From an uncultured Acidobacteriota bacterium (lineage in GTDB: Bacteria; Acidobacteriota; Thermoanaerobaculia; Gp7-AA8): a stretch of DNA of 45,817 nucleotides. Shown piece by piece: positions 9,661 through 13,899 of this stretch. The position numbers and the translations under genes are program-made. The DNA is taken from positions 1-45,817 of the forward strand of contig CALMZP010000012.1 of NCBI GenBank assembly GCA_937870635.1, written 5' to 3'. How positions within the stretch are numbered: position 1 is the stretch's first letter; every line of letters begins with the position of its first letter. The notes beneath the pieces are model-generated. The model was not told the origin of the DNA and did no database searches. It saw only the letters and a program-made list of their open reading frames with translations.

Positions 9661-9689
9661 GCCCCCGCGCGAGCGGGGGCCTTTTTTTT
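9661..9689 (+). terminator. Strong intrinsic terminator
   Basis: GCCCCCGC (9661-9668), loop GCGA, GCGGGGGC (9673-9680), then C and eight T. It ends the OmpA-like transcript, so the SpoIID-like gene 20 bp downstream needs its own promoter or read-through. Confidence 0.95.
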
Positions 9690-9708
9690 GCTGCGCAAAA
9701 GGATCGTC

Positions 9709-11940
9709 ATGATGAAAATCGCCGTCTCCCTTCTGGTCGCCTCTCTTCTCTTCACCTCCTGCGCTCCCGTCACCCCGCCCCCGGCCACGACGCCGGCCGC
9801 TGCGGAGCCGCCGCGCCCGACCAGTGCGCTGACCCCTGTCAGCTCGATGACGAAGAGCATCAGCGAGCCCTTCATCCGCGTCGGACTTCTCAGCGACCAG
9901 CCTCGCGCCGCGTTCCCGCGCGTCGCGGACGGTTACTACATCGTCGCCGACGGCGGACCCTCGATCCTGAGGCGCGGCTTTACAGCGCACGCGCCGCTCG
10001 CCGACGCGACCGTACGATTCGCCGTGCAGATGGCATCGATCTCCGACGGGCCGAGCGCCGAGGCGCTGGCGGAGAGGTTGCGCAAGGAGACGGGACAGCG
10101 GGTCGACATCATCTTCGATCCGGCGAACGGACAGCGGCGCGTCCTGGCGGGCGACTTCGCGACGAGCGAGGAGGCCACCCCGTTCCGCGCCACGCTGGTC
10201 GACCAGGGCTACGGTCGCGACATTACGGTCGTGCGACGCCCCTCCGACCAGCCGTTCGAGCGCGCGTTCACGATCGTCGACGATGAAGGCGACCGGCACA
10301 CGATCCGCGGCGAGTCGGTTCTCATCGTGCCCGTCTCCGCGGAAACGATCCGCATCGACGACAAGCAGTATCGGACCGCGGCGCGGCTCTTCGTCAACGC
10401 GCGCGGACTCTTCAACGTCATCAACGAGCTGAATCTCGAGGACTATCTGTTCGGCGTCGTTCCGGCCGAGCTGGGTCCCTCCGTTTACGACGAGCTCGAA
10501 GCGCTCAAGGCGCAGGCCGTTGCGGCACGCACCTACGCGATCCGCAACCTCGGTCAGTTCCGCGGCGAGGGTTACGACATCTGCCCGGGTCCAGCCTGTC
10601 AGGCCTATGTCGGATTCTCGGGCGAGCACGCCATGAGCACACAGGCCGTGCGCGAGACCGCGGGGCTGATCATGACGTACGAGGGAAAACCGATCGACGC
10701 GCTCTACACATCGACGTGCGGAGGCGAGACGAGCGATGTCGCGACGATGTTTCCCGGGCGCACCGATCCATGGCTGAAGCGCGCGCGCTGCGTGGAGATG
10801 GAGATGGTGGAGATCGCCGGACGCTCGCAGAGCGGCCTTCTCACCGAGACGCAGGCCGGCGCGCGCATGTTCGCGGCACTGGCCGGCATCCCGGAACGGG
10901 CGGCCAGTTGGAGTGGCAGCGATGTCGGCCGGGCGGTTGCGGCTGCGCTGCGACTTCTCGGCGATGACCCGCCGTCACGCCCCGCAGCGGCGTCGAGCCG
11001 GCGCGGCGACGTGCTCCGTTATCTGAGCGCGACGCTCGGCCTGGCCGGGAAAGCGCGGGCCACCACGCTGCCCGAAGATCGCGCTTACTGGTTCCGGCAG
11101 ACGAGTAATGTCGAGGACGATGCGTATCTGGCGGCTTCTTTCCTGATCAAGTACGGCATCTGGCCGGCGCAGTCGATCGACCGCGTCGACCTCTCCGCCC
11201 CCATGCCCCGCGACGAGGTCTACGCTCTCCTCGGATCGTGGCTGCGCGAGCACTCCGCGATGCAGGAGGCGAACGGAAAGATCTTCGCCGTCGAAGGGCG
11301 CACCGTCACGCTCAAGGCGGCTGGGAAGCTCGATCGCTTCACGCTCCCCGCGAACGTTCCGCTGTTCCGCAGACTGCAGGACCGCGTGCAGGAGTACCGC
11401 TCGCTTCCGGTCATGATCGGCGACCGCGCCACGATTTTCGTCGACGCCCAGAAGCGTCCCGTCGGCATGATCGTGCTGGCAAACGCCGACGGCGCTTCCT
11501 TCGACCGCACGTCGAGCTTTGCGAACTGGACTCGCAGCTACCGCGCCGATGAGCTGGTGACGACGATCAACCGCAGGCAGCCCATCAAGGAGCTGCTCGA
11601 CATCCGTCCGGTGACGGTCGACGCGTCGCACAGAATTGCGGAGCTCGAGGTCACGGCCGAAGGGGGAAGAAAGTTCATGCTCCGCGGTCTCCCCGTCCGA
11701 TGGTCGCTCAACGTCCCCGACAACCTCTTCGTGTACGAAAAGACGAAGGATCCGGACGGCGTCGACCGCTACACATTCTTCGGCAAAGGGTGGGGCCATG
11801 GAACCGGAATGTGCCAGGTCGGGGCGTACGGCGCCGCGTTCCGCGGGTGGACCTTCGATCGAATTCTGAAGCATTACTACTCGGGGATCGCCATTGCCCC
11901 GGCCCCGGCCCCCGTGACGCCACCCGCCCCCCGCACGTGA
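9709..11940 (+). CDS. SpoIID/LytB-domain lipoprotein with SPOR-like region
   Basis: 743 residues from ATG 9709 (purine-rich AAAAGGA 5 nt upstream; a TTG at 9688 would lie in the terminator tail). N-terminal lipobox LLFTSC marks a lipoprotein. Residues about 100-180 (VQMASISDGPSAEALAERL ... VLAGDFATSEEA) resemble a SPOR repeat. The SpoIID domain follows (LNLEDYLFGVVPAELGPSV, ALKAQAVAARTYA, STCGGETSDV) and ends near the C-terminus with GKGWGHGTGMCQVGAYG. In SpoIID the Glu of the PAEL-like motif catalyses lytic transglycosylation of amidase-processed glycan. This implies a cell-wall remodelling role, not sporulation. Between the two halves is about 350 residues with SLH-like features (AYLAASFLIKYGIWPAQS). 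The 3' end enters the GTGACGCC repeats. Confidence 0.85.
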   Translation: MMKIAVSLLVASLLFTSCAPVTPPPATTPAAAEPPRPTSALTPVSSMTKSISEPFIRVGLLSDQPRAAFPRVADGYYIVADGGPSILRRGFTAHAPLADATVRFAVQMASISDGPSAEALAERLRKETGQRVDIIFDPANGQRRVLAGDFATSEEATPFRATLVDQGYGRDITVVRRPSDQPFERAFTIVDDEGDRHTIRGESVLIVPVSAETIRIDDKQYRTAARLFVNARGLFNVINELNLEDYLFGVVPAELGPSVYDELEALKAQAVAARTYAIRNLGQFRGEGYDICPGPACQAYVGFSGEHAMSTQAVRETAGLIMTYEGKPIDALYTSTCGGETSDVATMFPGRTDPWLKRARCVEMEMVEIAGRSQSGLLTETQAGARMFAALAGIPERAASWSGSDVGRAVAAALRLLGDDPPSRPAAASSRRGDVLRYLSATLGLAGKARATTLPEDRAYWFRQTSNVEDDAYLAASFLIKYGIWPAQSIDRVDLSAPMPRDEVYALLGSWLREHSAMQEANGKIFAVEGRTVTLKAAGKLDRFTLPANVPLFRRLQDRVQEYRSLPVMIGDRATIFVDAQKRPVGMIVLANADGASFDRTSSFANWTRSYRADELVTTINRRQPIKELLDIRPVTVDASHRIAELEVTAEGGRKFMLRGLPVRWSLNVPDNLFVYEKTKDPDGVDRYTFFGKGWGHGTGMCQVGAYGAAFRGWTFDRILKHYYSGIAIAPAPAPVTPPAPRT

Positions 11941-12066
11941 CGCCGTCCGCCCGCCCACCCGTGACGCCACCGCCCACGCCGCCGTGACGCCTGCCACCCG
12001 GCCCGCCGTGGTTTCACGGATGGTTGGGCGGGTGGCGTCACGGTGGCAAGGGGGGGGCGGCGTCAC
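11914..12066. repeat. GTGACGCC repeats with an inverted partner
   Basis: GTGACGCC recurs at 11914, 11937, 11961 and 11984, a period of 23-24 bp; its inverse GGCGTCAC lies at 12034-12041 and about 12059-12066. The outer copies pair over GTGACGCCACC/GGTGGCGTCAC. The first copies are inside the 3' end of the SpoIID-like gene and the last touch the convergent gene. It resembles the heptamer elements in layout but has a longer period. It may act as a bidirectional terminator. Confidence 0.7.
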
Positions 12067-12074
12067 GCGCGCGG

Positions 12075-12776
12075 CTAAGGTTCCAAACCGAAGATGAGTG
12101 TGGCCAGCGCCACGGCCACGCGCGGGTCGAGGCCCGATCCGGCCGTGAGCTCGAGGTAATCGACCTCTCCCTTCTCGTCAGGCCGGCGCACGATCACCGC
12201 GCCGGGAACGCCGTCATGCACCAGGCGGATGTTGGCCTCGAACTTCCGCCGGAATTTGCCTAGGAGTTTGCGGATGAGGGCGCGCGAGAAGGACTCCTCC
12301 GTTGCGTACGCCCGGCCGCGCTGATCCGCCGGACCGGTGATCGTCCATCGATTCGTCGTCAGGCGCGAGAACGCTCCCTTGCGGACAGCCGCGAGCGTGT
12401 CGCCGTCGGGCGTGCGGATGGTCCATGTCGTCGACGGAAACGAGAAGCGCGAGCTTTGCACGATCCGGAGCACGGGATCGCTGCCGGAGTAGAGCGTGAC
12501 GCGCGTGCGCGGCACGAGGGCAGCGATGATGATCGCGAACACGAAGGTGAGCATCGCCGCGGCGATTGCCGCTCCCGGCCGGTCTTCGGCATTCAGGAAC
12601 AGTGCAGACGACAGACCTGTGAGAACGACGATGGCGATGACCAGGGTGGCGACGATTCCGACGACGCTCGCGAAGCTGCGGTACGTCAGGAGAGGTTTAC
12701 CCGACCGATCGGCGATCGAGGCGGTCTCGCCGGCCCGCACGCCGGGATGGAAGTAATAGCGCGTGGCGCTGAACAT
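12075..12776 (-). CDS. Membrane protein of unknown function, possibly the second half of an FHA fusion
   Basis: 233 residues if started at ATG 12776. Two hydrophobic segments (about 38-60, FASVVGIVATLVIAIVVLTG; and 70-90, AAIAAAMLTFVFAIIIAALV) precede a soluble part. That part (TWTIRTPDGDTLAAVRKGAF, RAYATEESFSRALIRKLLG, VHDGVPGAVIVRRPD) vaguely recalls LURP-one/scramblase-like folds; this is a weak guess. No Shine-Dalgarno sequence precedes the ATG. The reading frame is open upstream for another 36 codons, all Pro/Ser/Thr-rich, back to the A9 tract at the end of the FHA gene. The true product may therefore start in that gene. Confidence 0.65.
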   Translation of the reverse strand: MFSATRYYFHPGVRAGETASIADRSGKPLLTYRSFASVVGIVATLVIAIVVLTGLSSALFLNAEDRPGAAIAAAMLTFVFAIIIAALVPRTRVTLYSGSDPVLRIVQSSRFSFPSTTWTIRTPDGDTLAAVRKGAFSRLTTNRWTITGPADQRGRAYATEESFSRALIRKLLGKFRRKFEANIRLVHDGVPGAVIVRRPDEKGEVDYLELTAGSGLDPRVAVALATLIFGLEP

Positions 12777-12880
12777 TGGCGGTGGAGCGGTAACGGGTCG
12801 CGGAACGGCTGTGGAAGGGGGGACGGAAACGGACGGCGGATCGGGGAGCGGATCGATCGGTTCGGTCTGTGGATCGGTTG

Positions 12881-13318
12881 CTACTTTTTTTTTAAGTCGT
12901 CGCCGACCCGTTCGTGCGGCATGGTGGCGTTGATCGGATCCATCTCGGCGGTCGGAAAGTTGTCGAGTTCGACCGGCGCCGTGGAGGGCGCCGCCGACTC
13001 GGTGTGTGGCTGATCGGTCTCGGTGGGCAGCTCCTCCGAGAAACGCCCGTAGCTGTTGCCCATGCGCAGTTTCGCGCCGTGAGTGAGAGGCGCGACGCGC
13101 ACGCGCTTGCCGTTGACATAGGTGCCGTTCGCGCTGGCGAGGTCGTGCAGCACGAAGAAGCCGCGCTCGAACACGATCTCGGCGTGATGGCGCGACACCT
13201 TCGGATCGCGGAGGATGATGTCGTTTCCCGGATCCCGGCCGACCGTGAAAGGACGGTGGGTCTGCAGGCGGTAACTTTTCTCCGTCCCGTCGAGGCCGAC
13301 GAAGAATATTTTAGCCAT
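12881..13318 (-). CDS. FHA-domain protein
   Basis: 145 residues. An FHA fold (phosphothreonine-peptide binding) occupies about residues 18-95: VGRDPGNDIILRDP, VSRHHAEIVFE, LHDLASANGTYVNGKRV, the conserved Gly-Arg, Ser-Arg-His and Asn-Gly contacts. A flexible acidic tail with several Thr (about 95-145) ends in LKKK. FHA proteins usually read Ser/Thr-kinase signals; no kinase lies in this window. The ATG at 13318 is 9 nt after TAGAAT (minus strand, 13328-13333), suggesting a leaderless mRNA. The stop codon sits directly after an A9 slippery tract that could fuse this domain to the membrane protein encoded downstream. Confidence 0.92.
   Translation of the reverse strand: MAKIFFVGLDGTEKSYRLQTHRPFTVGRDPGNDIILRDPKVSRHHAEIVFERGFFVLHDLASANGTYVNGKRVRVAPLTHGAKLRMGNSYGRFSEELPTETDQPHTESAAPSTAPVELDNFPTAEMDPINATMPHERVGDDLKKK
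12884..12893 (-). other. A9 slippery tract with an A AAA AAG heptamer before the FHA stop codon
   Basis: On the minus strand the FHA gene ends TTA AAA AAA AAG TAG. A(12890) AAA(12889-12887) AAG(12886-12884) is the dnaX-type -1 slippery heptamer in the correct frame, inside nine A residues. A -1 shift enters GTA GCA ACC..., which stays open for 36 codons and joins the ATG of the next gene in frame. No obvious stimulatory hairpin was found. Confidence 0.6.
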
Positions 13319-13354: not shown

Positions 13355-13720
13355 TCAGGCGGTGGGCCTCGGCCTCTCAATTTCGGTAACGAGCTGTTCG
13401 ACGGAGACGGGCTTGGTCATCCAGCACTGGATCCGGCGATCGAGGCTGTCCGGGGCGGGCTGACCGCTGACGACGATGACCGGAATGAAGGCCGTTTCCT
13501 CCTGGCTGCCGAGGCGGGCGAGCACTTCCCGGCCGTCCATGAGGGGCATGAGCCAGTCCAGGAGAATCACGTCGGGTTTCTCCCCGCCGGTGATCCGCTC
13601 GACGGCCTCGGCGCCGTTCGCGGCAAGCTTTACCTCGAACCCGCGCTGGTTGAGCCCGATTGCATAGAGCCGGCGGGCGTCGGAATCGTCCTCGACGATG
13701 AGAATCTTTGGTCTCGTCAT
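13355..13720 (-). CDS. Single-domain response regulator (CheY-like)
   Basis: 121 residues, a receiver domain with no output domain. Acidic pocket EDD (10-12), phospho-acceptor Asp55 in VILLDWLMP, Ser in VIVVSGQ (about 85) and Lys103 in TKPVSV. It would relay phosphate from an unidentified histidine kinase. It lies 36 bp upstream of the FHA gene on the same strand, so the two may form a signalling unit. Divergent from pyrR, with element E4 between them. Confidence 0.92.
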   Translation of the reverse strand: MTRPKILIVEDDSDARRLYAIGLNQRGFEVKLAANGAEAVERITGGEKPDVILLDWLMPLMDGREVLARLGSQEETAFIPVIVVSGQPAPDSLDRRIQCWMTKPVSVEQLVTEIERPRPTA

Positions 13721-13768: not shown

Positions 13769-13844
13769 TTTTGGATTTTGGATTTTGGATTTTGGATTTG
13801 CGGGGAATCAGAAATCCAAAATCCAAAATCCAAAATCCAAAATC
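13769..13844. repeat. Inverted heptamer-repeat element E4
   Basis: The left arm (13769-13799) is ATTTTGG about four times; a loop of roughly 14 nt (TGCGGGGAATCAGA) follows; the right arm (13811-13844) is the inverse AAATCCA/AATCCAA units. The stem could be about 30 bp with a small loop. It is much more A+T-rich than its surroundings. It lies between divergently transcribed genes, so a terminator role is unlikely here. Confidence 0.92.
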
Positions 13845-13899
13845 TTCTCTGAGCGGTCCCGGCGAGGTCGTGCTACCATCCCGGCGCTTTTCAGTACGA

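Follow-up and report, generated by a model that had tools for sequence, protein, structure and literature searches.

A conserved poly-A tract between an FHA domain and a predicted tubby-like membrane domain in Thermoanaerobaculia, and its probable use by transcriptional slippage

Conserved slippage genes appear to be concentrated in mobile elements, since a scan of 108 bacterial genomes yielded seven conserved candidates of which six were IS elements (PMC1088944). In that work, slippage genes were recognized by an ORF organisation and a tract that are conserved in non-identical homologues. A further diagnostic was given by Antonov et al. (PMC3711429), who reasoned that orthologues differing in the direction of the frame change point to transcriptional realignment, whereas ribosomal frameshifting keeps its direction; IS630-type transposases with programmed transcriptional realignment provide the example. 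The closest described systems outside mobile elements are tssM1 of Citrobacter rodentium, with an A11 tract (PMC4256274), and dnaX of Thermus thermophilus, with an A9 tract (PMC5009743), while in Escherichia coli dnaX the heptamer A AAA AAG serves a −1 ribosomal frameshift. Our literature search found no paper joining transcriptional slippage with FHA domains, and the two papers in it that also mention Acidobacteria have no relevance to the gene described here.

The locus described here lies in a window of 45,817 nucleotides (the whole stretch of DNA that was analysed) from a MAG of Thermoanaerobaculia (Acidobacteriota, 'gp7'), for which an earlier note had proposed a programmed frame change joining an FHA gene to the adjacent gene for a membrane protein, here called MEM. 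We consider it likely, from comparative evidence, that both form one gene with two programmed products, obtained by RNA-polymerase slippage on a run of nine or ten A residues. The polymerase would slip on this tract and generate a mixed mRNA population, in which faithful transcripts would give a short FHA protein (145 aa here) ending right after the tract, and transcripts with one additional A (in three species, one A less or two more) would give a fusion of roughly 400–460 aa. In the fusion, the FHA domain would be followed by a linker rich in Pro and Thr and then by a tubby-like barrel domain with two transmembrane helices as its anchor.

The tract, the split and their conservation

On the minus strand the FHA gene ends GAC GAC TTA AAA AAA AAG TAG, which agrees with the earlier reading of a dnaX-type heptamer placed in frame inside A9. 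The predicted continuation was also reproduced: past the tract, the −1 frame stays open for 36 codons and runs directly into the MEM ORF, and the addition of one A to the tract produces a 414-aa ORF composed of FHA, the 36 linker codons and MEM. The features of the locus are as follows.

9688..11940, plus strand: SpoIID/SPOR protein, convergent neighbour of MEM, linked by conserved synteny only
12075..12776, minus strand: MEM, 233 aa, predicted tubby-like/LURP-one-like beta-barrel with a transmembrane hairpin (AlphaFold2 model)
12777..12884, minus strand: linker, read in the slipped (−1) frame only, 36 codons, Pro-rich, with a T-E-P-[LIFM] motif (VATDPQTEPIDPL...)
12881..12883, minus strand: TAG stop of the 0 frame, abutting the tract
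12885..12893, minus strand: putative A9 slippage tract (TTA AAA AAA AAG), A9/A10 in 16 of 18 family genomes
12881..13318, minus strand: FHA ORF from the ORF list, short 0-frame product of 145 aa, Pfam FHA match
13355..13720, minus strand: CheY-like response regulator by domain match, directly upstream of the FHA ORF

Within the FHA ORF the domain occupies residues 25–87 and is followed by a Thr-rich tail that ends DDLKKK. The flanks of the locus carry two repeat regions. Between the convergent SpoIID and MEM genes (11920–12070), short repeats of high GC content, both inverted and direct ('CCGTGACGCC' / 'GGCGTCACGG'), were seen by eye and are possibly a bidirectional terminator. A low-complexity repeat at 13770–13855, between the response regulator and a pyrR-like gene, gives rise to spurious readings 'FGFWILDFGF / NPKSKIQNPKSK' on both strands.

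An open −1 frame is by itself weak evidence, because the DNA is about 64% GC and the frame of MEM runs without a stop for 411 codons, reaching back into the FHA gene. The claim therefore needed comparison, and it is conservation that constitutes real evidence. The comparison set consisted of 18 genomes of the window's family, representing 12 genera, and one sister-family genome (G018), all of them drawn from relatives that are soil gp7/Thermoanaerobaculia MAGs from several projects. A search of 148 relatives detected MEM homologues in all 18 family genomes and in the sister-family genome, with none outside the order at E 1e-3, a threshold that leaves room for more distant ones.

This comparison showed the tract, the stop, the slipped-frame linker and the split itself to be conserved. 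In 16 of the 18 family genomes, spanning 11 of the 12 genera (loci L001–L016), the FHA frame is closed by a run of A residues, A9 in four loci and A10 in 12. In every one of these loci the first A of the tract occupies the third position of a codon for Leu, Val or Ser and the 0 frame stops at most three codons past it, and none of the 16 presents a plain in-frame fusion. Relative to FHA, the MEM frame is −1 in 13 loci and +1/−2 in the other three (L003, L005 and L016). The homologue survey that the earlier note had called for thus returned both arrangements, as two members of one genus of the same family (G003 and G012) together with G018 lack the tract and encode FHA, linker, two transmembrane helices and domain as a single ORF of 400–415 aa. 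Since these three relatives encode a plain fusion, the fused product can be regarded as a genuine protein, and the proposal of a programmed frame change at this locus is supported. In the protein tree, some forks of which are weak and in which L016 and L019 form long branches, the 16 tract-bearing loci form a clade that excludes the in-frame forms and contains at least two switches of direction. The surroundings are equally stable, with a fixed synteny of a CheY-like regulator before and a convergent SpoIID gene after the locus; the regulator precedes FHA in 14 of 15 tract-bearing relatives, and in the remaining one (L054) the contig begins at FHA. The CheY-like regulator and the FHA gene probably share one operon.

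Several signs of selection are associated with the tract. Runs of nine or more A are scarce in these genomes, with 95 distinct ones in 18 genomes of 3–7 Mb each (1–10 per genome), and despite this scarcity such a run is found at exactly the end of FHA in 16 of 18. Fourfold sites of the FHA domain differ on average by 52% between loci, a divergence at which an A10 free of selection should have been lost. The codon preceding the tract has A as its third base in 16/16 loci, compared with 5% of the corresponding codons elsewhere, and the tract's first two Lys codons are AAA in 16/16, with about half AAG in three other invariant Lys columns (the third Lys codon was left out of this count, being partly padding in the alignment). 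The FHA domain is nearly identical in the 16 species (pN/pS 0.08). Past the tract, TE[PQ] is present in 13 of the 16 linkers, in the slipped frame only, and L003 has TDP. These comparative data confirm that the tract has been kept by selection, beyond chance or a miscounted base. Moreover, the conserved tract, its AAA codons, the slipped-frame TEP motif and the lack of a conserved MEM start together indicate that translation continues from FHA into the region past the tract, and that the short form is retained as well.

Level of the slip and alternative explanations

We regard transcription as the probable level of the slip, with RNA polymerase as the slipping enzyme. Such slippage is favoured over dnaX-type frameshifting because the direction is mixed and SD-like or structural stimulators are lacking. 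The organisation of ORFs and tract is conserved across 16 species of 11 genera, following the reasoning of PMC1088944, and the direction of the frame change, the diagnostic of PMC3711429, is −1 in 13 loci and +1/−2 in three, with the switches seen in the tree. The run of about nine or more A/T at the frame junction that slippage genes require is present in 16/16 loci. An A9 tract is close to the shortest on which slippage is efficient.

The first rival to be considered is ribosomal −1 frameshifting of the dnaX type on A_AAA_AAG or A_AAA_AAA, or sliding of the ribosome on the poly-A Lys codons, which would give the same fusion from an unaltered mRNA. The exact heptamer stands in frame in the window, and the shift required in 13/16 loci is −1, for which A AAA AAG and A AAA AAA are both ribosomal sites. 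Nevertheless, the heptamer with AAG as its third codon is restricted to two of the 16 loci (L001 and L002), the rest having A_AAA_AAA or A_AAA_AAC, and the stretch that is conserved is the full run of 9–10 A, longer than a heptamer needs. In the three loci that need +1/−2, a simulated −1 shift terminates early, immediately in L003 and L005 (145–149 aa) and after 45 codons in L016. An SD-like stimulator upstream of the tract is absent in 14/16 loci and present in two, and downstream of the 16 tracts RNA folding generally does not exceed that of shuffled sequence, with z-scores around 0. A conserved stimulator of either kind was thus discarded, none being kept among the 16 loci. Furthermore, a gene for tRNA-Lys(CUU) was found, whose product should weaken a slip at AAG according to the argument made for Thermus (PMC5009743). 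We therefore consider a ribosomal shift unlikely as the general explanation; in the minus-1 species it is possible that ribosomal shifting acts, alone or in addition. Of the two mechanisms put forward in the earlier note, transcript slippage consequently fits better, the direction not being conserved and dnaX-type stimulators being absent.

Phase variation, in which changes of tract length in the DNA would toggle the membrane fusion on and off within a population, seems very unlikely to us. Homopolymers are known contingency loci, and A9 and A10 do both occur at this position. Against this, none of the 16 assemblies is in the in-frame ON state, although with equally common states about one third should be (probability of finding none, 0.0015), and the immediate 0-frame stop is conserved; MAG assemblies report the consensus tract length only, with which low-level variation is compatible.

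It is more improbable still that FHA and MEM are two ordinary adjacent genes, with MEM using a start of its own or translational coupling and with an incidental tract. An ATG does stand at 12776 in the window, and every locus offers some ATG, GTG or TTG before the first transmembrane helix. These starts, however, share no conserved position between the tract and that helix in the 16 loci, most of them have no SD-like element, and the linker, which lies upstream of any conserved domain, is kept as protein in the slipped frame. The selection on the tract and the single ORF of the outgroups argue against this reading as well.

Homopolymers are prone to sequencing error, and the earlier note had itself raised a miscounted A that would mask a plain fusion; the chance of this is practically negligible, since 16 species sequenced in several independent projects share the out-of-frame split, A9/A10 and a 0-frame stop close behind the tract, which rules a miscount out.

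Predicted products and further genes with conserved A runs

The FHA domain (Pfam PF00498, E 2e-21) retains its phosphothreonine-binding residues (G-R, S-x-x-H and N-G) invariant, as G27, R28, S42, H45, N64 and G65. Naming MEM by sequence had to be abandoned, since it gave no Pfam family above threshold and no PDB sequence match. Its AlphaFold2 model (pLDDT 84, pTM 0.80) combines a beta barrel, a C-terminal helix and a transmembrane hairpin near the N terminus (helices 38–63 and 67–86). The model matched 1zxu with Z 13.6 and TULP1 with Z 11.8, above unrelated rows and most of the list, and Foldseek alone gave E 0.05. A tubby-like beta-barrel fold is accordingly predicted for MEM.

Two short motifs were observed beside the FHA domain. 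Directly after it, at 13013–13033 on the minus strand, lies a conserved ELPTE[STN]D, a candidate phosphothreonine ligand of TxxD type, and the TEP[LIFM] of the slipped-frame linker is a candidate FHA ligand of TxxL/I/F type. Both could be bound by the FHA domain in cis or in trans, as in GarA/OdhI. We infer that FHA-MEM is a phosphothreonine-signalling module with soluble and membrane-bound forms, whose ratio would be set by slippage. As judged from the domains, the soluble FHA protein and a smaller pool of membrane-bound FHA receptors probably share their phospho-threonine partners, either as competitors or by passing them on, in a setting of Ser/Thr-kinase signalling; about 40 Ser/Thr kinase domains are encoded in this genome.

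Most of the remaining A9+ runs of the 18 genomes were retrieved and clustered. At least 43 of the 95 runs fall in FHA and two other genes, and this lends slippage in this clade far more credibility than one locus could give. The tracts of these two genes are located as follows.

G000:C64, about 30812 (L147, L219): DUF374 tract; homologues L148, L149, L154, L155, L157, L158, L160, L163, L164, L167 and L169
G000:C131, about 6335 (L174, L265): DUF4388 tract; homologues including L258–L269, and L273 in G018

In the DUF374 gene, which encodes a lysophospholipid-acyltransferase-like protein, an A10/A11 tract occurs mid-protein in 12 genomes and the remainder is in the −1 frame in 12/12; the gene is intact in six other genomes of the order (G001, G003, G005, G008, G012 and G018). 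The DUF4388 regulator gene contains A9–A11 in 15 genomes, after a winged-helix-like part. Its 0 frame is intact, and one additional A leads to a stop at codon 178 in 12/12 genomes re-examined. In the sister-family genome G018 the A10 is present with an inverted arrangement, the long form needing one additional A, and no tract was seen in more distant members of the class where the gene was readable. As a further slippage gene, dnaX was considered and rejected, being a single ORF of about 500–620 codons in most genomes and not among the A9+ tract genes examined; contig ends interrupt the gene in G006, G001 and probably G007.

We tentatively suggest that, in this whole order of Acidobacteriota, poly-A transcriptional slippage may serve as a permanent means of regulation in a small, constant group of chromosomal genes, namely the FHA/tubby-like receptor, the DUF374 acyltransferase-like enzyme and the DUF4388 regulator. 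If this were so, the product ratios of all three could be tuned together, for instance by temperature, nucleotide pools or elongation factors, because a single property, the slippage of RNA polymerase, would set them all. Automated gene calling would present such genes as split pairs or pseudogenes.

Comparison with known systems

Conserved cases of programmed transcriptional slippage outside mobile elements are few, and FHA-MEM would add a chromosomal signalling gene whose tract is kept family-wide, whose direction has switched at least twice and whose host genomes contain two further conserved tracts. The clade thus lends itself to comparative study of how slippage sites originate in an intact ORF, how they are maintained and how they determine product ratios.

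The nearest likeness is with tssM1 (PMC4256274), in which a poly-A tract also stands shortly before the 0-frame stop of a gene for a membrane protein, slippage adds an A that leads to a longer second form, and no SD or stem-loop stimulator is found. For tssM1, slippage has been demonstrated through mass spectrometry, Western blot and function, and it is isolated in one or two genes, whereas FHA-MEM is known from comparative evidence, extends over 11 genera, involves an FHA protein and has a mixed direction. With Thermus dnaX (PMC5009743) it shares an A9-type run and, putatively, two products of one gene through transcript heterogeneity, but the long form is the 0-frame product in Thermus and would need slippage in FHA-MEM; in the genomes of the window's own order in which dnaX was recovered whole, it is a single ORF. 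The window has the A AAA AAG heptamer in common with E. coli dnaX, yet lacks the SD-like element upstream and the hairpin downstream, and direction varies among the orthologues. At the level of the predicted fold, MEM resembles Tubby and LURP-one proteins (Arabidopsis AT5G01750, 1zxu), from which it is set apart by a transmembrane hairpin inside the domain, by the FHA domain that slippage would join to it and by the absence of a sequence-level family match. Finally, FHA-MEM is like the IS630-type transposases (PMC3711429) in having both +1 and −1 orthologues, and differs from them in being a chromosomal gene in fixed synteny rather than a mobile element.
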